A stretch of DNA of 25,539 nt from a virus: the IMG/VR virus record IMGVR_UViG_3300010297_000073, positions 1-25,539 of that record; one strand, 5' to 3'. The notes under the pieces were generated by a model that was not told the origin of the DNA, ran no database searches, and worked only from the letters and a program-made list of their open reading frames with translations. Below, piece after piece: positions 311 to 25,539 of the stretch; within the stretch, counting starts at the first letter, position 1, and every line of letters begins with the position of its first letter. The position numbers and the translations under genes are program-made.

Positions 311-340
311 AAAAATGCAGCACATGTATTTTGCGCTGTA

Positions 341-493
341 ATATTATTAGTGTTGCTAAAGTACACGGTTTCTGGATTAGGTTGGCGAAAGCTAGAAAAT
401 GTTGGTGAAAATATCCGTAAAAATAATCAGTCCTAGTACCTCAAATATCTGAAATATAGGTGGCGGGGAATAAAGTTAAAGCACTAATAATTT
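341..493 (+). ncRNA. 5' domain of a candidate large structured RNA
   Basis: No credible ORF lies here, and the bases fold well by eye. TTATTAGTG (344-352) pairs perfectly with CACTAATAA (482-490), a 9-bp helix enclosing about 130 bases. Inside it, GGATTAGG (374-381) pairs with CCTAGTACC (432-440) with one bulged base. Directly stacked on that helix is a 5-bp hairpin, TTGGC/GCTAG (382-395), with a GAAA tetraloop. ACGG (365-368) could pair with CCGT (415-418) as a pseudoknot. The closing helix ends three bases before the tRNA. The strand is inferred from the adjacent tRNA and genes. Membership in a known class such as GOLLD or ROOL is a guess from size, GNRA loops and tRNA linkage. Confidence 0.55.
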
Positions 494-567
494 GCACCTG
501 TAGCTCAAGTGGATAGAGCAACTGCCTTCTAAGCAGTAGGTTTCAAGTTCGAGTCTTGACAGGTGTA
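494..567 (+). tRNA. tRNA-Arg(TCT)
   Basis: A full cloverleaf can be drawn. The acceptor stem is GCACCTG/CAGGTGT, with a G-U first pair. The D arm is GCTC/GAGC, and the anticodon stem is ACTGC/GCAGT with loop CTTCTAA and anticodon TCT at 528-530. The variable loop has five bases, and the T arm is TCAAG/CTTGA with loop TTCGAGT. The discriminator base is A567. CCA is not encoded (ACTA follows), so host CCA addition is needed. It reads AGA, which is by far the commonest arginine codon in the genes of this window, so it fits a codon-supply role during infection. It is flanked within three bases on both sides by structured RNA. Confidence 0.93.
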
Positions 568-865
568 CTAAGGGTGTTACTCCACAACGGCAATGTTATG
601 TTAAGGTCTAGGAAGTGTAGTAGAGATGGGCTTACAAACGTAATAGTAGTAAAGTTGAATTCTCTTGTTTAAGCATGGAGACAGATGAGCAACCCGCGGG
701 GAACATGGAGGCAAAGTGTTGAGTCCTATTTGGTAATAGAATAGGCAGAGACCCTAATACACAGTATTATACTAATCATGGAGGTAAGCGTCTATGGAAA
801 AAAGATTTGTGAAAGCAACTAGGCTGAGATAAATGCTCTGGTATAATACTACCCTTTTTATTAAT
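568..865 (+). ncRNA. 3' domain of a candidate large structured RNA, ending in T-rich sequence
   Basis: About 290 bases without a supported ORF. AAGGGT (570-575), which starts right after the tRNA, pairs with ACCCTT (851-856) and closes the whole domain. AGTATTATAC (763-772) pairs perfectly with GTATAATACT (841-850). Inside it, AGCGTCTAT (787-795) pairs with ATAAATGCT (829-837) with one mismatch, and TTGT/GCAA (807-818) caps a GAAA tetraloop. CCTATT/AATAGG (725-745) is a further hairpin, and TTAC/GTAA (632-643) a small one. GGTCT (605-609) can pair with AGACC (749-753). T-rich sequence from 855 onward (TTTTTATTAATTTTT) may end transcription. The density of nested complementary segments strongly suggests a functional RNA. 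The class is unproven; GOLLD/ROOL-like is the best guess. Confidence 0.6.
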
Positions 866-7901: not shown

Positions 7902-8885
7902 ATGATTTCAACAAAAAACTTAATCGTTGGACTATGTGATATACCAACAGGTTGGGCTTTCCAGCATTATCTAGGGCTTTCTCAATATCTTGATGGTCAA
8001 GATGTAAAGATAAGGTCTATAATTAATACTAAAGAAAGAACACCTTCTATGCATATATATTTTGATCCTAAAATAAATAGATACAAATTCAAAGATTTTT
8101 CTTCTGGGATACACGGTGATTGTATAGAGCTTGTTAAAGTTGTATGTAATCTAAAGTCTCGGAGTGAAGCATCTGTAAAAATCATACAAGATTATAATGA
8201 GTATGTTCTGAATAATGGACATAACCCTGTACAAGAATATAAAGTTCATAGTAGATATAAAGTGACTGATTATGAAATGAGACACTGGACTACAATAGAT
8301 CAGAAGTATTGGACTAAATTTAATATTGGTTCTAGACTTCTTGAGAAATATAATGTGGCCCCGCTAGAATTTTATACAATGAGTAAAGAAAATGATGAAG
8401 GTAAAGAAGATAGAATTACTATTAAAGGTTATAACATATACGGTTATTTCAAAGATGATGGTACATTGTACAAGATCTATCAACCTAAAGTATCTGATAA
8501 AAAGTTTATCAAGGTCAAGAATTATATTCAAGGCTCTGATCAACTGCAGTATGATAAGAAGTATCTTGTAATTACATCTTCACTAAAAGACTTAATGGCT
8601 TTTAACAGACTTAAGTTATCTGATGCAGAATCTATTGCACCAGATAGTGAGAACACATTGATTCCTGATAACATGCTAAACAAGATTGTCAGCAAGTATG
8701 AAAAAGTATTTGTATTATTTGACAATGATGAAGCTGGTGTAAGGTCAATGATGAGATACAAGGAGAAGTATGGATTTGACTATGTAATATTAAATATGGA
8801 AAAAGATTTGTCTGACTCTATAAAAAGATATGGTATTACAGAAACCAGAGATACATTATTACCCTTATTAAAAAAGTTGATATGA
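7902..8885 (+). CDS. Toprim-domain DNA primase
   Basis: A 327-aa primase that would make RNA primers for the phage polymerase. The N-terminal ~100 residues resemble the DnaG zinc-binding-domain fold (TPSMHIYFDP, YKFKDFSSGIHGDCIELVK) but lack the CHC2 cysteines. The Toprim core includes YLVITSSLKDLM (221-232) and the acidic motif LFDNDEAG (272-279). SENTLIPD (249-256) lies between them, as in other phage primases. The usual Toprim Glu is not obvious in SSLKD, a variant I have seen in phage primases. No C-terminal helicase domain is fused; the helicase is a separate gene. The end overlaps the next start as ATGA. Confidence 0.85.
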   Translation: MISTKNLIVGLCDIPTGWAFQHYLGLSQYLDGQDVKIRSIINTKERTPSMHIYFDPKINRYKFKDFSSGIHGDCIELVKVVCNLKSRSEASVKIIQDYNEYVLNNGHNPVQEYKVHSRYKVTDYEMRHWTTIDQKYWTKFNIGSRLLEKYNVAPLEFYTMSKENDEGKEDRITIKGYNIYGYFKDDGTLYKIYQPKVSDKKFIKVKNYIQGSDQLQYDKKYLVITSSLKDLMAFNRLKLSDAESIAPDSENTLIPDNMLNKIVSKYEKVFVLFDNDEAGVRSMMRYKEKYGFDYVILNMEKDLSDSIKRYGITETRDTLLPLLKKLI

Positions 8886-9367
8886 AAAAAAGTTTGAAGA
8901 ATAGAATAAGAGATGAGATGTATGAATGGAATATTGAAATTGCTCATGGCAAAGTGATACCATTTACAGATGATATGATTCCTGAAAAAGCTGTAGGTTT
9001 TGTTTATGTAATGAACTACCTAGCAAATAATGGCCAAATGTATTCTTATATAGGTAAGAAGAATTTCTTCAGTAGAAGGAAAAAAAAGTTTGGAAAGAAG
9101 AAGTTGGCTGCTATGACAGACAAGAGAGCTAAGAAGTATGAGATAGTCATTAAACCTGACTATAAGAATTACTTCAGCAGCAATGCAGAATTAAAGCAAG
9201 CTTACAAGGATGGTAGATTAATATATAGAACCATACTTAAGATTTGTTTTAGTAAAGCAGAACTGACCTATCAAGAAACTAAATATCAATTTAAACATGA
9301 AGTTCTTGAGAGAGATGAATACCTAAATGGAAACATATTAGGAAGATTTTATAAAGGAAAAATATGA
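8882..9367 (+). CDS. GIY-YIG family nuclease
   Basis: The first ~35 residues are a basic helical extension. Then comes a GIY-YIG-type domain: GFVYV (39-43) for the first strand, SYIGKKNFFSRR (55-66) with the YIG core and the conserved Arg region, KNYFSSNAELK (95-105), and the catalytic-Glu helix TYQETKYQF with E132. It ends YLNGNILGRF. This arrangement resembles the Seg-like/phage-conserved GIY-YIG proteins of tailed phages. As it lies within the replication operon (ATGA overlaps on both sides) rather than as a free-standing insert, a role in processing branched DNA or degrading host DNA is as likely as homing. Confidence 0.75.
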   Translation: MKKSLKNRIRDEMYEWNIEIAHGKVIPFTDDMIPEKAVGFVYVMNYLANNGQMYSYIGKKNFFSRRKKKFGKKKLAAMTDKRAKKYEIVIKPDYKNYFSSNAELKQAYKDGRLIYRTILKICFSKAELTYQETKYQFKHEVLERDEYLNGNILGRFYKGKI

Positions 9368-18703: not shown

Positions 18704-18856
18704 TTACTCACCAAAGATATGAAGGTGTACAGTAAGTACAAATAGATACAAGGTAAATGTATTTATATTTTCTTTATCAGTAGCACCTATGTATTCCCAT
18801 CCCAGGGCAAACCTGTCATGCGGTAAATGTAATGCAAATTCTAACTGCCAATTCAT
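18704..18856 (-). CDS. 50-aa conserved-looking small phage protein
   Basis: On the minus strand, an ATG overlapping the giant gene's stop (TAATG) opens 50 codons ending in TAA at 18704-18706, one base from the T run of the terminator. The protein starts MNWQLEFALHLPHDRFALGW and ends with a hydrophobic, beta- or membrane-like stretch (FTLYLFVLTVHLHIFGE). The FALGWEYIG and NTFTLYLFV segments resemble very small phage proteins I have seen encoded beside other genes, function unknown. The stop-start overlap and the exact fit between giant gene and terminator are the main support. Confidence 0.7.
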   Translation of the reverse strand: MNWQLEFALHLPHDRFALGWEYIGATDKENINTFTLYLFVLTVHLHIFGE

Positions 18857-21800
18857 TATTTTAATTTTCCAGATGACTCTATTCCTTTTAATGCTTCAGG
18901 TAAGTCTGCAGTACCACCAGTATATCCAAATGCTTTAAATATATGACCATAAATTTTAGGCATACCTGCTTGCTTAAACCAAAGATCACCGACATCTTGT
19001 TGATAATAAGCCTTTTCACTACCTGTAAGATGTAAAGCTATATCTTGTAAAATCTTACCATATAATTTAATAGTGTTATTAAACACTGTAGTAGTAGACT
19101 CTACAATCTTTAACTGATCTTCTAAACCAAAGTTGTATACACCAAACTGAGGTAGAGGTATGAATGCAGTAACCTCTTGCATAGTACCAATAGTAAGTAA
19201 CTGAGAAAGGTTTTCTAAGTAACCCATAAGTTCAAAATCTTCATTACCCAGGGCTCCAGACTTTTCTCTCATGTTATCAAATCTTTCAGGATCATCAGGG
19301 TCATATCCAAATCCTAATGTTAATATTAAACCTAACACTGTAAATATAATAGCCTCTGTAATACTTCGCATCAAATCTATCTTCTCTTGTGTAGATAAAT
19401 AAGGCCAAGCTTTTCCTTTTGAACTAATTAACTTAGTCAAGGCCTTTAATCCATTTATATAAAATCCTATTGGGGCTGATCCTAATGCCCAATCATATCT
19501 TCCTTGAAATCTATCTACAAATGAATCTCTACTCTTATCATAAGAGAAGGCTACCCTATTTATCATTAAAGGGAAGAACCACTTTCTCATAAATAAGAAT
19601 AATCTATACCCAAGGTATTTGTTACCTTCAGCCTGTCCAAAATCATCATATGCACCATACAATCTTCTAGACATTCCTTGAAATAAATTCTTTAAATTTT
19701 TAAAGTTTGCAGAATTAGCTATAGTTATAGTCTGACCATCTGCTAACTGTACTACAGATTTAATACCATTATACTCCTGTATCTTTTCTACAGTTGTATT
19801 ATAAAGTTCAGCTAATTCTTCTAATGACTCACCTTGAGTATAGACATGCTCAACCTTTCTATTACTAAATTCAGGATCAACACCTTCCTTAAGTTTCATA
19901 ACACCTGTTTCTTTATCAAGCTCCCAAGCATCTATGTACTTTAAATTACGTGTCTTACCGTTCTGTAATTTTTGAGTAACAGTTTGTGAATATAAAAATG
20001 CAGAAAATAATTGTAAGGCAGCTTCCATTTCTAGGTTCTTTCTAGCCATATACATCCACTCTCCATTTAATAAATCTTTAGCAAAACTTCTAGTTACAGT
20101 TCTACCAAATTTATCTTTAGTCATAAACACTGAATCAAAAGCTTCAACCAATTGATAGTTCAATGAAGGAGCACCTATACTATACACATCTTTAGCTAAC
20201 CATTTTGTCATAGTTGCAGTTGCCCACAATCTACCTTTAGCATAATCTCTAGCATTAATAACCTCACCACCTGCAGCTTCAATATAGTTTTGCATTAACT
20301 GTCCAAATCTGTTCTTTAAATCTGAAGGTATGTTCAATGCTAATGAACCTCGTGCAGATAATGAAGACAGTCTACCTGCTAGTCTAGAAATGATTTCACT
20401 AGTATTACTACCTTCAAATTTTCTTCCTTCATATTCACGTTCAATTAAAGATCTAACTTGTTCTAGTCTATTATATCTTCCTTGTTCTTTTACTTCTACA
20501 AATTTTCCAGCTGTTTTAAAAGCACCTGCGCTAAATACTTTTTTCTTCTTTAATGCATTATCAGGATCCTGTAAAGTATCTAGAACAGAATTAACAATAG
20601 GTAATGTTTGAATAAGTTTACTCTGTTGTTTTAAAGAATACATATAACGCATCATGTTTTGTATTACATCAGGGTCTACGTTATCAACTTTTATATCAAA
20701 TAATCCACTTACTGGAACTCTTTTTAGTTCTTCACCTTCTAATGTTGTAGATACTAATCTATACTCACCTATATTATCATCATAAACGTAGTTGTAATCC
20801 TCTACAGATTTATCTTTAGCTCCAGCAATATCACGTATAGCCTGGATTAAGTTTTCTTGTATCTGCTTAGCTTTATTACCTAACTTACCAGATTGAACTA
20901 CAGAAAGATTATCTCTTAGTATATATCTAGGTAAATCTAAATATAACTTAGAATCATTGGGGCTGTTTTCTTGAAACTTAAGATGATGTTTTTTCATAGA
21001 CTCAAGCAGCTTGGCTCTAGGTGAATTAGGAGCAGCCATAATTTTCTGATACTCTTTATTCAAATACTTAGAACCTTCTTCATTCCTAGGTAAAAATCTA
21101 TTTTTATTATCCTTATGTACTCCTACTTTATATTCAATGTTACCAGTGGCAGGATTATAACCTGTCATATACTCTCGTTTAATTCTATACTGAGAGTGTC
21201 GAGCATTCCCTGTAACAGGAACACCATCTATTTCTAAAGTAAACTCTTGTTTAGTTATAGGATCAACTAATGTTTTTGTATCAAAGTAACTTTCATCAAT
21301 AGGTAAAGCTACATCATTGGACATACTTCTTATATAGAAAGGTTGTTTACCTCTTTTACCTTTTACAAATTTTCTTCTAATAACATGGTTAGCAAAGAAC
21401 CAATCTGCAAATTCATCATCTGCAATTAAGTCTTTCTTTAAATCCTCAGTATTAATATAGTCATCAAACTCAGAAGCAGTAAGAGATTCTTTTCCTAGTC
21501 TCTGAAGATGACTGTTAAATGCATCTACATAATATTCAGTAGGCAACTTCTCTGACAAGTTTCCTAAATCAGAATAAATACTCTCTAATTCATTAGCTTC
21601 TTCCAAAGTTAATCCTGTAGCTGTTTGTTTCTGTAACAGCTTTACATATTCTTTCTTATTCTCCTCAGTTAAATTCTGAGGTTTAGTTTTCATAATAGTA
21701 ATGATTGCGCTCAGTCTTGTTGACTCTTGTGCAGTTAAACCAGATGTTTTATCAAAGGCATCTTTAATGTCAATGATCTTTTGTTGAAGTGATTTAATCT

Positions 21801-24800
21801 TCTTAACCTTTTCTATACCTAACTCATAAGGAACAGGTTGATTTCGGCTATCCTTATTGGCATACATTAAATCATAAATTTCCTGATATAACTCTGAAAC
21901 ATTGAACTTAGTATTCTTCTTCATCTTATCTTGAAGTTCTTTCATTCTAGAGATAAGTCTTGCCTTCTCATCAAAATACTCTTGCTTTATTGCAACTCTA
22001 GTATTTTGTTTTAACCAATCTATTCTTGCTTTTCTATACTCATCTGTATCATAACCATACTTGCTATCTATCAAGTTAATGAACTCATCATAAGCTGTCT
22101 GTAAAGAACCTTCTTTTTCAGCAAACTCATAATATTGTCTAGATGCATTTCTGTACTCAATCAATACTTTAGCAATACTAAGATCGTATACACCATCAGC
22201 AGGAGAATCAACTTTTGGAGTACCATCTTCATATGTTAAAGAATGTAACATCTGATAGTTTTTCCAAAGCTCTTGCATTATAGAATACTTTTGAAACCTT
22301 TCTAGCTCATTAGTAATTTCATTGTTCTCATTATTATATTCGTCCAAAGCAGTTTTCCTAAGCTGTCTTGCAGCTTCAGCTACTGCAGGCGGATACTTAT
22401 CAAAGATTTTATCAAGCTCATAGATTTCTTTTACATATATATCATGCATGAAATCTCTTTTAAATTGATACAAAGCTTCTCTAGCTTTAGCTTCAGCTTC
22501 TTTATCTTGCGCTTCTTGTGCTAAGGTTAATTCATATTCTAACTTACCTAGGTCATGTCTCCAACCATTACCAAATCTATCTATAAAGGAATACACCTCT
22601 TTCATTGCAGGTTTTCTCTCTATAAGATTTCCATCCTTATCATATACATTTTCTAATGTAAACAACTGATCTTTAGTTGCAACCATATCAAGTATCTGTC
22701 TGGTCTTAAGTCTGTTAAATCCTATCTTTGGTAAGAGATTAGCTAAGTCATTTCTAAATTCATATGATGCAGCAATTGCTTCTTGCTCTGCTTCCGTCCT
22801 GATGTTTTGAATAAAGATTGCTAATCCACCTACTATAGGATCATTAGATGAAGTATATGCTTCTATAAATCTATTTAACCAACCTACATCTTTTAGTCTA
22901 CCCGATAATGCATCTACAATCTTTCCTCTGTTTATCTCAAACTGTTGATACGTTGTGACAAAATCTGCAATATACTTAGTTAAAACTCCTTTCTTTTCTA
23001 AAGCCTTATAATCATCATTAGTTAATTGTCTGTTTACGGCCTTATCAAAAAAGTCTGATATCTCTTCTTCACTTAGTTTACTCTTTAAAGAATTCATTAA
23101 GTCCTTCTTAAGTCTATCTTTTAAGAAGTCATTCATATAAGAAGTAGTTTGGACAAATATATCTATATTGTTTTCCTTATAGATTTCAGATATAAATTTA
23201 TCAGCTCTTTCTAAATTAAGTTTTACATTATTTACAAAAGTAAAGAACTCATTATCCTCTTTAATATCAAATCCTTTTTTACCTTCTCCCTGATTCTCTC
23301 TAAATAAAGCATCAATATCCTCAAAGGTTGATGTCCATCCTGCAATAGCATTTCTATAAGTGTAAAGTAAAGTTATTGCATCACGCTGATTGTATGACTT
23401 AGTCTTACGCATAGCATCTAAATCCTCATAGATATTCTTAGCAATGTTATCTATTATACCTATAGTATTTATAAAAGCTCTAGAAGAATTCAAAAGATCT
23501 TTTTGTCTTTGCTCTTCAGCTCTAACAACATCTAAGATTATATCTTCTTTACTAGCATTTTTATTTAATGTAGATACAGTTTGATATGATCTAAGTATCT
23601 CTTGAGCTTTTGGTAATAATACATTTGACCCTTCTCTAAAGATAGTTCTATCTAACATCTCTTTGAAGTAAGGTGTCTGCGATCTGTAGTTCTTAGCTTT
23701 ATTTAATATAAGATTGTTTCCAATATATAGTTCATTTAAACTTTGTTGCAATGTATTAGAAGCTATACCCTTAGTTAAATCAGAGGCCATATCTTTTATA
23801 TTCTTGACAAAGAATACTATATCATCATTTTTAATCAGGTCAGTCTCAAGATCAAAGTTCTCATTTAAGAATGCATCAGCAAGCTCTTCCATTGTAGTAG
23901 ACTCATTAATACCTGAAACCTTAGATGTCTTAAATACTTTTCTAAACAATTGTCTGATTGCAAATAACAACTTAGAAATAAAAGCTAAGAAACCTTCACT
24001 TTCTACTTCTTCAGTAACTTTATCTACAGCTTTCCATTGTAATGAATAAGTCAAGACCTCATTTTTAAATGCATCACCAGCTACGTTTAGCTCTGGATAG
24101 TTTCTTTTAACATGATTTATTATAAACCTTCCTTCTTCTGTAGATTCTAATTGAGCATACAGATTGTCAAATAACTTTCTGTTTTCAAATTGTATTGCGC
24201 GTATAAATGGATGGGCAAACTCATGGAGCATTGTATCTAAATCAATATTATCTCCTACTGTATATATAGTACCACCCCAGTAAAATGCAGATTCGTTGTT
24301 ATAGTTTTTACCTTTACTGTTTAAAAGTTTTTTAGCATCTGCTTGACTTAGGTTAGCATAACCAACATTTAAAGATAGAGCTAACTTTTTAGCAATAAGC
24401 TTTGCAATTTCAATCCCTCTAGTTTTACGTTGAGCCTTAGTGTCTACAGGAACCTGTACTAAAAAGTCTTTAAGTACTTCTTCCATATAAGGATCTACAA
24501 AATAATTTACATTATCCCTTACACCAGCATAGCCTTCTTTGGCCAGCTTCTGAAATATAGGATTCATTTTTTGATTCTTAGCTCTCAGTATTCTGTTAGC
24601 AGTAGACGTGGTAATACCAAGCATCTTGACTGCACTGACTTCATTCTTTTTATTTTTGAATTCTTTAACACCTACTAAGTCTACATAATCATCATTAACT
24701 GTATATTCTATCTTACCAACCTTCTTATCATTCTTCATAGCCTGAAGAGTAACAATATTAGATTCAGGGTCAGATGTTTCATCTACAACTAAACTAACTT

Positions 24801-25539
24801 CATCCTGAAAAGGATCAGTAAGATCTGTAGTAAGATCACTTTGATTTTCATTTGTAAAAGAAAAATATCTATAACCTTTGTTTCTATACTGGTAACCTTC
24901 TTGATCTTCTCTTACAGGCATAAAATAAATAAGATCATTTAAATCTTTACCTCTACCCATATCAAGCTTAGCTTCCATTATCTGCTTCCACTCTTTGAAG
25001 TACTGCTTATATCCTTCATACTGCATTGGGTAGTTACCTTCTTTAGTACGCAAAAAGAAATCTATTAAATACAGCTTAGGCATAACCTTACCTATATCTT
25101 TAGGACTTCTTCCATTTAAATTCTCTTGTGTAACTAACTCTGTCGCAGTAGGATGTTCAATAGTACCTGTAATTACAACAGAATCTCCTGTTCGTAAGTT
25201 ACCTTTTCCTATAAAAGTTCTTAAGAGCTTCCAAGTAGGAAACATTTCTTGTACGTTTCTATACCAGCTTTGACCTTCAAGTAAAGGAGTTATCTCTTTA
25301 GTAAATATTTTACGATCTTTTCTAACTTTTGTAAAACTTTTACCTCTTCTTTGAGATAAAGGTAATCCTCTATTATCAATCCAGTTTAAAAATTCTAAAG
25401 CATTCTCTTCCTTTCTGAATTGTGCTAGTTTTATAACACCATCAATGTCATGAAACTCTTCGTCTACACTTCTAATAACTCTACCAAACTTTCTTAGTGT
25501 GGCTGATCCTGATAAAGCATAGTCTATGAAAGGGTGGCC
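18856..25539 (-). CDS. Giant multidomain protein, probably virion-associated (5' end cut)
   Basis: The minus-strand frame is open from the window edge to TAA at 18856, at least 2,227 codons; ATG 25243-25245 is internal. Near the cut edge, LSGSATLRKFG and HDIDGVI look like a nucleotidyltransferase-type motif (25441-25512). A zincin motif HEFAH lies at 24211-24225. Long helical, Lys/Glu-rich stretches occupy the middle. A LysM-like segment (VYTQGESLEELAELY to LADGQTITI) is at 19717-19857, and one hydrophobic helix (ITEAIIFTVLGLILTLGF) at about 19315-19375. crAss-like phages encode several giant virion proteins delivered into the cell; this composition fits one. Being opposite in strand to the replication genes suits late expression. 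No RNA polymerase catalytic motif is visible in this part. Confidence 0.8.
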   Translation of the reverse strand, partial: GHPFIDYALSGSATLRKFGRVIRSVDEEFHDIDGVIKLAQFRKEENALEFLNWIDNRGLPLSQRRGKSFTKVRKDRKIFTKEITPLLEGQSWYRNVQEMFPTWKLLRTFIGKGNLRTGDSVVITGTIEHPTATELVTQENLNGRSPKDIGKVMPKLYLIDFFLRTKEGNYPMQYEGYKQYFKEWKQIMEAKLDMGRGKDLNDLIYFMPVREDQEGYQYRNKGYRYFSFTNENQSDLTTDLTDPFQDEVSLVVDETSDPESNIVTLQAMKNDKKVGKIEYTVNDDYVDLVGVKEFKNKKNEVSAVKMLGITTSTANRILRAKNQKMNPIFQKLAKEGYAGVRDNVNYFVDPYMEEVLKDFLVQVPVDTKAQRKTRGIEIAKLIAKKLALSLNVGYANLSQADAKKLLNSKGKNYNNESAFYWGGTIYTVGDNIDLDTMLHEFAHPFIRAIQFENRKLFDNLYAQLESTEEGRFIINHVKRNYPELNVAGDAFKNEVLTYSLQWKAVDKVTEEVESEGFLAFISKLLFAIRQLFRKVFKTSKVSGINESTTMEELADAFLNENFDLETDLIKNDDIVFFVKNIKDMASDLTKGIASNTLQQSLNELYIGNNLILNKAKNYRSQTPYFKEMLDRTIFREGSNVLLPKAQEILRSYQTVSTLNKNASKEDIILDVVRAEEQRQKDLLNSSRAFINTIGIIDNIAKNIYEDLDAMRKTKSYNQRDAITLLYTYRNAIAGWTSTFEDIDALFRENQGEGKKGFDIKEDNEFFTFVNNVKLNLERADKFISEIYKENNIDIFVQTTSYMNDFLKDRLKKDLMNSLKSKLSEEEISDFFDKAVNRQLTNDDYKALEKKGVLTKYIADFVTTYQQFEINRGKIVDALSGRLKDVGWLNRFIEAYTSSNDPIVGGLAIFIQNIRTEAEQEAIAASYEFRNDLANLLPKIGFNRLKTRQILDMVATKDQLFTLENVYDKDGNLIERKPAMKEVYSFIDRFGNGWRHDLGKLEYELTLAQEAQDKEAEAKAREALYQFKRDFMHDIYVKEIYELDKIFDKYPPAVAEAARQLRKTALDEYNNENNEITNELERFQKYSIMQELWKNYQMLHSLTYEDGTPKVDSPADGVYDLSIAKVLIEYRNASRQYYEFAEKEGSLQTAYDEFINLIDSKYGYDTDEYRKARIDWLKQNTRVAIKQEYFDEKARLISRMKELQDKMKKNTKFNVSELYQEIYDLMYANKDSRNQPVPYELGIEKVKKIKSLQQKIIDIKDAFDKTSGLTAQESTRLSAIITIMKTKPQNLTEENKKEYVKLLQKQTATGLTLEEANELESIYSDLGNLSEKLPTEYYVDAFNSHLQRLGKESLTASEFDDYINTEDLKKDLIADDEFADWFFANHVIRRKFVKGKRGKQPFYIRSMSNDVALPIDESYFDTKTLVDPITKQEFTLEIDGVPVTGNARHSQYRIKREYMTGYNPATGNIEYKVGVHKDNKNRFLPRNEEGSKYLNKEYQKIMAAPNSPRAKLLESMKKHHLKFQENSPNDSKLYLDLPRYILRDNLSVVQSGKLGNKAKQIQENLIQAIRDIAGAKDKSVEDYNYVYDDNIGEYRLVSTTLEGEELKRVPVSGLFDIKVDNVDPDVIQNMMRYMYSLKQQSKLIQTLPIVNSVLDTLQDPDNALKKKKVFSAGAFKTAGKFVEVKEQGRYNRLEQVRSLIEREYEGRKFEGSNTSEIISRLAGRLSSLSARGSLALNIPSDLKNRFGQLMQNYIEAAGGEVINARDYAKGRLWATATMTKWLAKDVYSIGAPSLNYQLVEAFDSVFMTKDKFGRTVTRSFAKDLLNGEWMYMARKNLEMEAALQLFSAFLYSQTVTQKLQNGKTRNLKYIDAWELDKETGVMKLKEGVDPEFSNRKVEHVYTQGESLEELAELYNTTVEKIQEYNGIKSVVQLADGQTITIANSANFKNLKNLFQGMSRRLYGAYDDFGQAEGNKYLGYRLFLFMRKWFFPLMINRVAFSYDKSRDSFVDRFQGRYDWALGSAPIGFYINGLKALTKLISSKGKAWPYLSTQEKIDLMRSITEAIIFTVLGLILTLGFGYDPDDPERFDNMREKSGALGNEDFELMGYLENLSQLLTIGTMQEVTAFIPLPQFGVYNFGLEDQLKIVESTTTVFNNTIKLYGKILQDIALHLTGSEKAYYQQDVGDLWFKQAGMPKIYGHIFKAFGYTGGTADLPEALKGIESSGKLK

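Follow-up and report, generated by a model that had tools for sequence, protein, structure and literature searches.

Genes and features of the locus

The DNA considered here, hereafter the window, is a 25.5-kb record (25,539 nucleotides) of an uncultured aquatic phage, the relatives of which have genomes of about 110 kb. It carries a set of replication genes, coding for a DnaB-like helicase, a Sak4-type protein, a primase and a family B DNA polymerase, while its left end is occupied by a small gene, ORF1, next to which lies the tRNA and RNA locus that is our subject. Cultured relatives seem to be absent for this phage group. A crAss-like label was dropped, as nothing related to a 2129-residue protein of the window turned up in the phage collection, and as the matches of the DNA polymerase are scattered over many phages. 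The large protein (18856-25245, minus strand) contains a LysM domain (Pfam, 1.1e-5) and gave no tblastn match among 50,697 phage records. The protein encoded at 8882-9367 (plus strand) has its PHROG match in a family annotated as NAD synthetase, with a weaker one to a homing endonuclease family; the annotation looks doubtful. The features of the locus are listed below, the two strands of a helix being separated by a slash.

5-310: ORF1, 101 amino acids, at the left end of the window
318-338, minus strand: terminator-like hairpin between ORF1 and the 5' block
343-491, plus strand: 5' block, an optional domain, with closing helix 343-352/482-491
376-381/432-437, plus strand: inner helix of the 5' block, enclosing a segment of variable length (382-431)
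446-450/458-462, plus strand: hairpin of the 5' block
about 494-568, plus strand: tRNA-Arg(UCU), TCT anticodon (ARAGORN; Rfam RF00005, 67 bits)
570-861, plus strand: 3' block, a predicted structured RNA of about 290 nt (292 nt), with closing helix 570-575/851-856 and a U run after it
580-584/706-710, plus strand: domain holding the GCAA-loop hairpin and the long irregular arm (RNAalifold consensus)
586-597, plus strand: small hairpin AACG-GCAA-UGUU with a GNRA-type loop (RNAalifold consensus, invariant)
599-691, plus strand: long irregular arm, with pairs 599-602/688-691, 606-609/679-682 and 615-618/673-676
619-672, plus strand: variable arm tip, in the place of which relative L115 has an unrelated yet pairable hairpin
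716-762, plus strand: domain formed by helix 716-720/758-762 with inner hairpin 725-731/739-745
763-850, plus strand: 3' domain, with helix 763-774/839-850
777-782/791-796, 807-810/815-818 (GAAA loop 811-814) and 826-828/836-838, plus strand: hairpins of the 3' domain

The tRNA, which a preliminary description of this DNA had seen as embedded in the region, is confirmed both by ARAGORN and by RF00005. It folds as a cloverleaf with a TCT anticodon, its CCA end is not encoded (A567 is followed by CUA), and it decodes AGA, the codon used for 227 of the 292 arginines in the phage's main genes. The 3' block begins 2-3 nt after it. Between positions 311 and 971 of the window there is no ORF of at least 50 amino acids, and the indels that separate the copies found in relatives are not multiples of three (1- and 7-nt indels are seen). 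A protein gene is therefore ruled out for both blocks, in keeping with the earlier view of the region as non-coding. The GC content of the region of the blocks is 39%, against 30-32% in its surroundings, and a promoter scan at the locus gave a result no better than shuffles.

Distribution among related phages

Searches of viral contigs returned 80 loci with the helicase as query and 35 with ORF1. The 3' block was found in three other IMG/VR contigs, at 84-92% identity (L006, 91%; L013, 92%; L115/L119, 84%). The records of these contigs are 3300017730_000002, 3300025086_000650 and 3300030380_004151, the last being that of L115. In all four contigs it stands directly behind the same tRNA, in one copy per genome, and no 3' block lacking the tRNA, or placed at another site, was seen in the 22-24 related records searched. 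The 5' block occurs only in the window and in L006, which share the order 5' block, tRNA, 3' block; its ends are about 90% alike and its middle differs in length, being shorter in L006. L013, where the tRNA lies 6 nt after ORF1, and L115, where two other ORFs stand between ORF1 and the tRNA, lack the 5' block and carry the 3' block alone, so that the two flanks must be taken as independent blocks. The idea of a structured non-coding region flanking the tRNA thus survives, whereas that of a single unit of some 520 bases gives way to two optional, separable modules.

Clean empty sites, with neither block, were found in eight contigs, some of them near-duplicates (those behind L010, L011/L084, L015, L016, L018, L030, L033 and L034). 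There, ORF1 is followed after about 6 nt by the same tRNA-Arg(UCU) and then by the next gene; L021 likewise has the tRNA and no blocks. The remaining ORF1-bearing relatives have no tRNA at that place. Downstream of ORF1, two of these tRNA-less relatives (L104, 1800-1920; L107, near 2490-2610) have a conserved non-coding stretch of another kind, which closes with a terminator-like hairpin (CCTTGCTAATTACAGCAGGGATTTTTT) and has only weak Rfam matches that fall below threshold. Just after ORF1 in L045 (5555-5620), the place of the tRNA is taken by a short palindromic non-coding stretch (GTGTACTCAGAGTACAC...). Finally, the contig 3300030380_004151 (L086/L115) contains a 10-base gap, on either side of which the end of ORF1 and the gene after it appear in differing copies, and the scaffold therefore probably joins two strain variants.

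A wider quest for homologues, in which viral contigs were scanned for DNA motifs, bacterial and archaeal genomes were scanned as well, and phages and plasmids were searched by blastn, recovered the same three relatives only. Profile and covariance searches over the loci of relatives and 22 whole phage records had the same outcome, all other matches being at chance level.

Structure of the blocks

The long-range helices singled out in the preliminary description (344-352/482-490, 570-575/851-856 and 763-772/841-850) are all perfect Watson-Crick helices, the first being even longer than noted (10 bp, 343-352/482-491), and the GAAA loops reported at 387-390 and 811-814 are present, that at 387-390, in the segment 382-431, being found in the window copy only. 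While the helices are real, the density of complementarity in a single sequence is marginal: there are two perfect helices of at least 9 bp where dinucleotide shuffles lead one to expect 0.42 (P=0.065), and the region as a whole folds with no better energy than its shuffles (z +1.7; separate parts, z -0.02 to -0.83). As single-sequence folding does no better than chance, the claim of structure rests on the comparison between phages.

When the four 3' blocks are folded together by RNAalifold, the consensus comprises 81 pairs, and 97.2% of its cells are paired. Five pairs have changed on both sides, a number reached by three of 500 shuffles, while slid structures give 0-1. Most core pairs never vary among the four copies; as the 3' block is represented by four sequences and the 5' block by two, covariation has low power here, and the sample is too small for a formal verdict. 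Column shuffles, which do not preserve dinucleotides, give the 3' block a z score of -3.06 when its 3' half is considered and of -1.91 when it is taken whole, with -2.01 for the arm with L115 and -4.75 for the two-sequence consensus of the 5' block; taken by itself, the 5' half of the 3' block does not stand out from such shuffles (z +0.42). Helix 716-720/758-762 has four standard pairs in the window and five in the relatives. In the arm, pair 616/675 changes from U-A to C-G in L115, and the arm of that copy contains a helix of 11 bp (P=0.023). With the helices placed by hand, each helix of the arm is intact in four of four copies (GUGU/GCAU becoming GCGU/GCGU, AGAG/CUCU becoming AGGC/GCCU, and AGCUUG/CAAGUU becoming GACUUA/UAAGUU), a placement that favours pairing and does not count as a test. 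The U run past the closing helix of the 3' block is not called by a strict terminator scan, and it makes a plausible transcript end.

Comparison thus lends modest support to the predicted structure of the blocks. That a structured non-coding region lies beside the tRNA is supported by conservation between phages, by compatible and compensatory changes, by the non-triplet indels and by the lack of an ORF.

A constant core and a swapped arm

Between L006 and L115 the core of the 3' block is 99.1% identical (2 of 234 positions differ), as against 45% for the columns of the arm. The phages that harbour these copies are not close, the helicase of L006 being 93% identical to that of the window and that of L119 55%. 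A core so nearly identical in distant phages has either moved recently between them or is very tightly held. Similarly, the core of the window is 93-94% identical to those of L006 and L013, to be set against a fourfold-site divergence of 36-37% elsewhere in the genome. ORF1 is also unusually alike between block-bearing phages, with fourfold divergence at 3-4 of 24 sites (3/24 between the window and L006, against 37% over ten other genes), and recent exchange therefore accounts for part of the conservation of the core. An exchange of the whole ORF1-tRNA-RNA block being likely, this conservation is not to be read as selection alone. The arm would appear to have been exchanged or diversified between L006 and L115; a source or an antisense target of the L115 arm was sought in phages, with matches at chance level only.

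A proposed role, and its rivals

We lean towards seeing this locus as a phage tRNA gene joined by an accessory structured non-coding RNA of no described class, the 3' RNA of which would act in trans, and we hold this to be somewhat probable. The RNA would most likely represent a narrow new family, linked to the tRNA and processed together with it, with a variable arm that makes a specific contact. What is observed is the sequence of the locus, its placement, the empty sites, the constant core with a swapped arm and the retained pairing, while transcription, processing, action in trans and the partner are inferred. A transcript would run from the optional 5' domain through the tRNA and the 3' domain to the U run. 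Host RNase P and the enzymes that mature tRNA 3' ends may then excise the tRNA from the co-transcript, making it available to the AGA-rich genes of the phage. This excision would free a 3' RNA of about 290 nt, its own ends mutually paired, transcription stopping at the U run. Such a stable RNA could act in trans, with its near-invariant multi-branched core as the working fold, while the variable arm might touch a changing partner, either a host factor of RNA processing, translation or defence, or another copy of the 3' RNA. A more ambitious version is quite unlikely: the RNA would be of a new class, a constant scaffold bearing a recognition hairpin that can be exchanged, it would be launched as part of a tRNA transcript, and an arms race with some host factor would drive it, the RNA serving, for instance, to inhibit or decoy a defence directed at tRNAs or ribosomes.

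The patchy presence of the blocks and the precision of the empty sites might also be expected of a selfish or leftover DNA insert beside a tRNA gene, MITE-like or an integration scar, with end helices that are terminal inverted repeats and no functional transcript. Each edge of the 3' block bears TAA (ACTAA/GGG...ATTAA/TTTT, the slash marking the edge, against ACTAATTTT in L016), the ends read GGGT...ACCC, and the two blocks come and go separately. Yet each genome has a single copy of the element, the site never differs, the far edge shows no duplicated tRNA 3' end, no transposase or integrase was noticed alongside, and a constant core with a swapped, still pairable arm fits an RNA better than a dead insert. 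We consider this origin unlikely. It is quite improbable that the blocks are a local leader and trailer of the tRNA only, that is, hairpins that guide processing, protect ends or terminate transcription, with nothing acting in trans: they do abut the tRNA tightly on both sides, and a U run does follow the closing helix, but the same tRNA is retained in eight relatives that have neither block, a trailer needs far less than 290 nt and a conserved multi-branched core, and the U run escapes the strict terminator scan.

Comparison with known RNA families

GOLLD and ROOL are large structured RNAs that lie beside phage tRNAs, abundant and still unexplained; many members of GOLLD exceed 800 nt, its 3' region is universally conserved, and it forms RNA-only nanocages. 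The preliminary description had raised the possibility of an RNA of one of these classes, beside that of a new class; membership of GOLLD or ROOL is not supported. With cmscan at E<=10, neither model (GOLLD, RF02032, 416 positions; ROOL, RF03087, 574 positions) matched the window, L115 or L006, and neither matched the locus when run directly on six phage records, a set with no GOLLD- or ROOL-positive control record. As the ROOL model matched no control genome, the sensitivity of the negative result is unproven for this family. No other Rfam family matched the blocks, the tRNA aside, and blastn against phages gave no match to the 3' block. A group I intron was rejected: RF00028, the model of which scores above cut-off in two control genomes, has no match at the locus (E<=10), no gene is interrupted, and the tRNA is intact, with the blocks outside it.

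In GOLLD, a variable 5' region and a conserved 3' region are described, with tRNAs sometimes in the linker, near phage tRNA islands, where ROOL, a large structured phage RNA of unknown function, is also found (PMC12286853). The window and L006 show the corresponding order of 5' block, tRNA and 3' block at a phage tRNA locus. In contrast to GOLLD, the present locus measures about 520 nt with its tRNA and its 3' block 292 nt, too short for that class, its 5' domain is dispensable, the covariance model is unmatched, and the element is known from one phage group only. The resemblance to GOLLD may thus fairly be called an analogy, limited to layout. Like ROOL it would be a structured phage RNA at a tRNA locus, and it differs in being far shorter than the 574-position model, which it does not match. 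The layout described for GOLLD (PMC12286853) would also be that of a strongly diverged GOLLD or ROOL RNA whose linker, placed between a variable 5' and a conserved 3' domain, harbours the tRNA; this reading is nevertheless very improbable given the unmatched models, the much shorter length and the lack of the 5' block in two of the four copies. The tRNA-adjacent lncRNAs of phage K (Kayvirus) have been likened to GOLLD and ROOL for their position near tRNAs and their abundant transcription (PMC9241854); they belong to an unrelated, staphylococcal phage and were seen as transcripts, while the RNA discussed here is a prediction.

We rate the accessory RNA as a small new family, not filed under GOLLD or ROOL, of a kind already known, in which a structured RNA is attached to a phage tRNA locus. 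Smaller and modular, with natural empty sites, a minimal version reduced to the 3' block and a natural swap of its arm, it would offer a simpler system for understanding why phages attach RNAs to tRNAs. If confirmed, it would suggest that the arrangement of a tRNA-attached RNA arose more than once, here as an element unrelated to GOLLD and ROOL.
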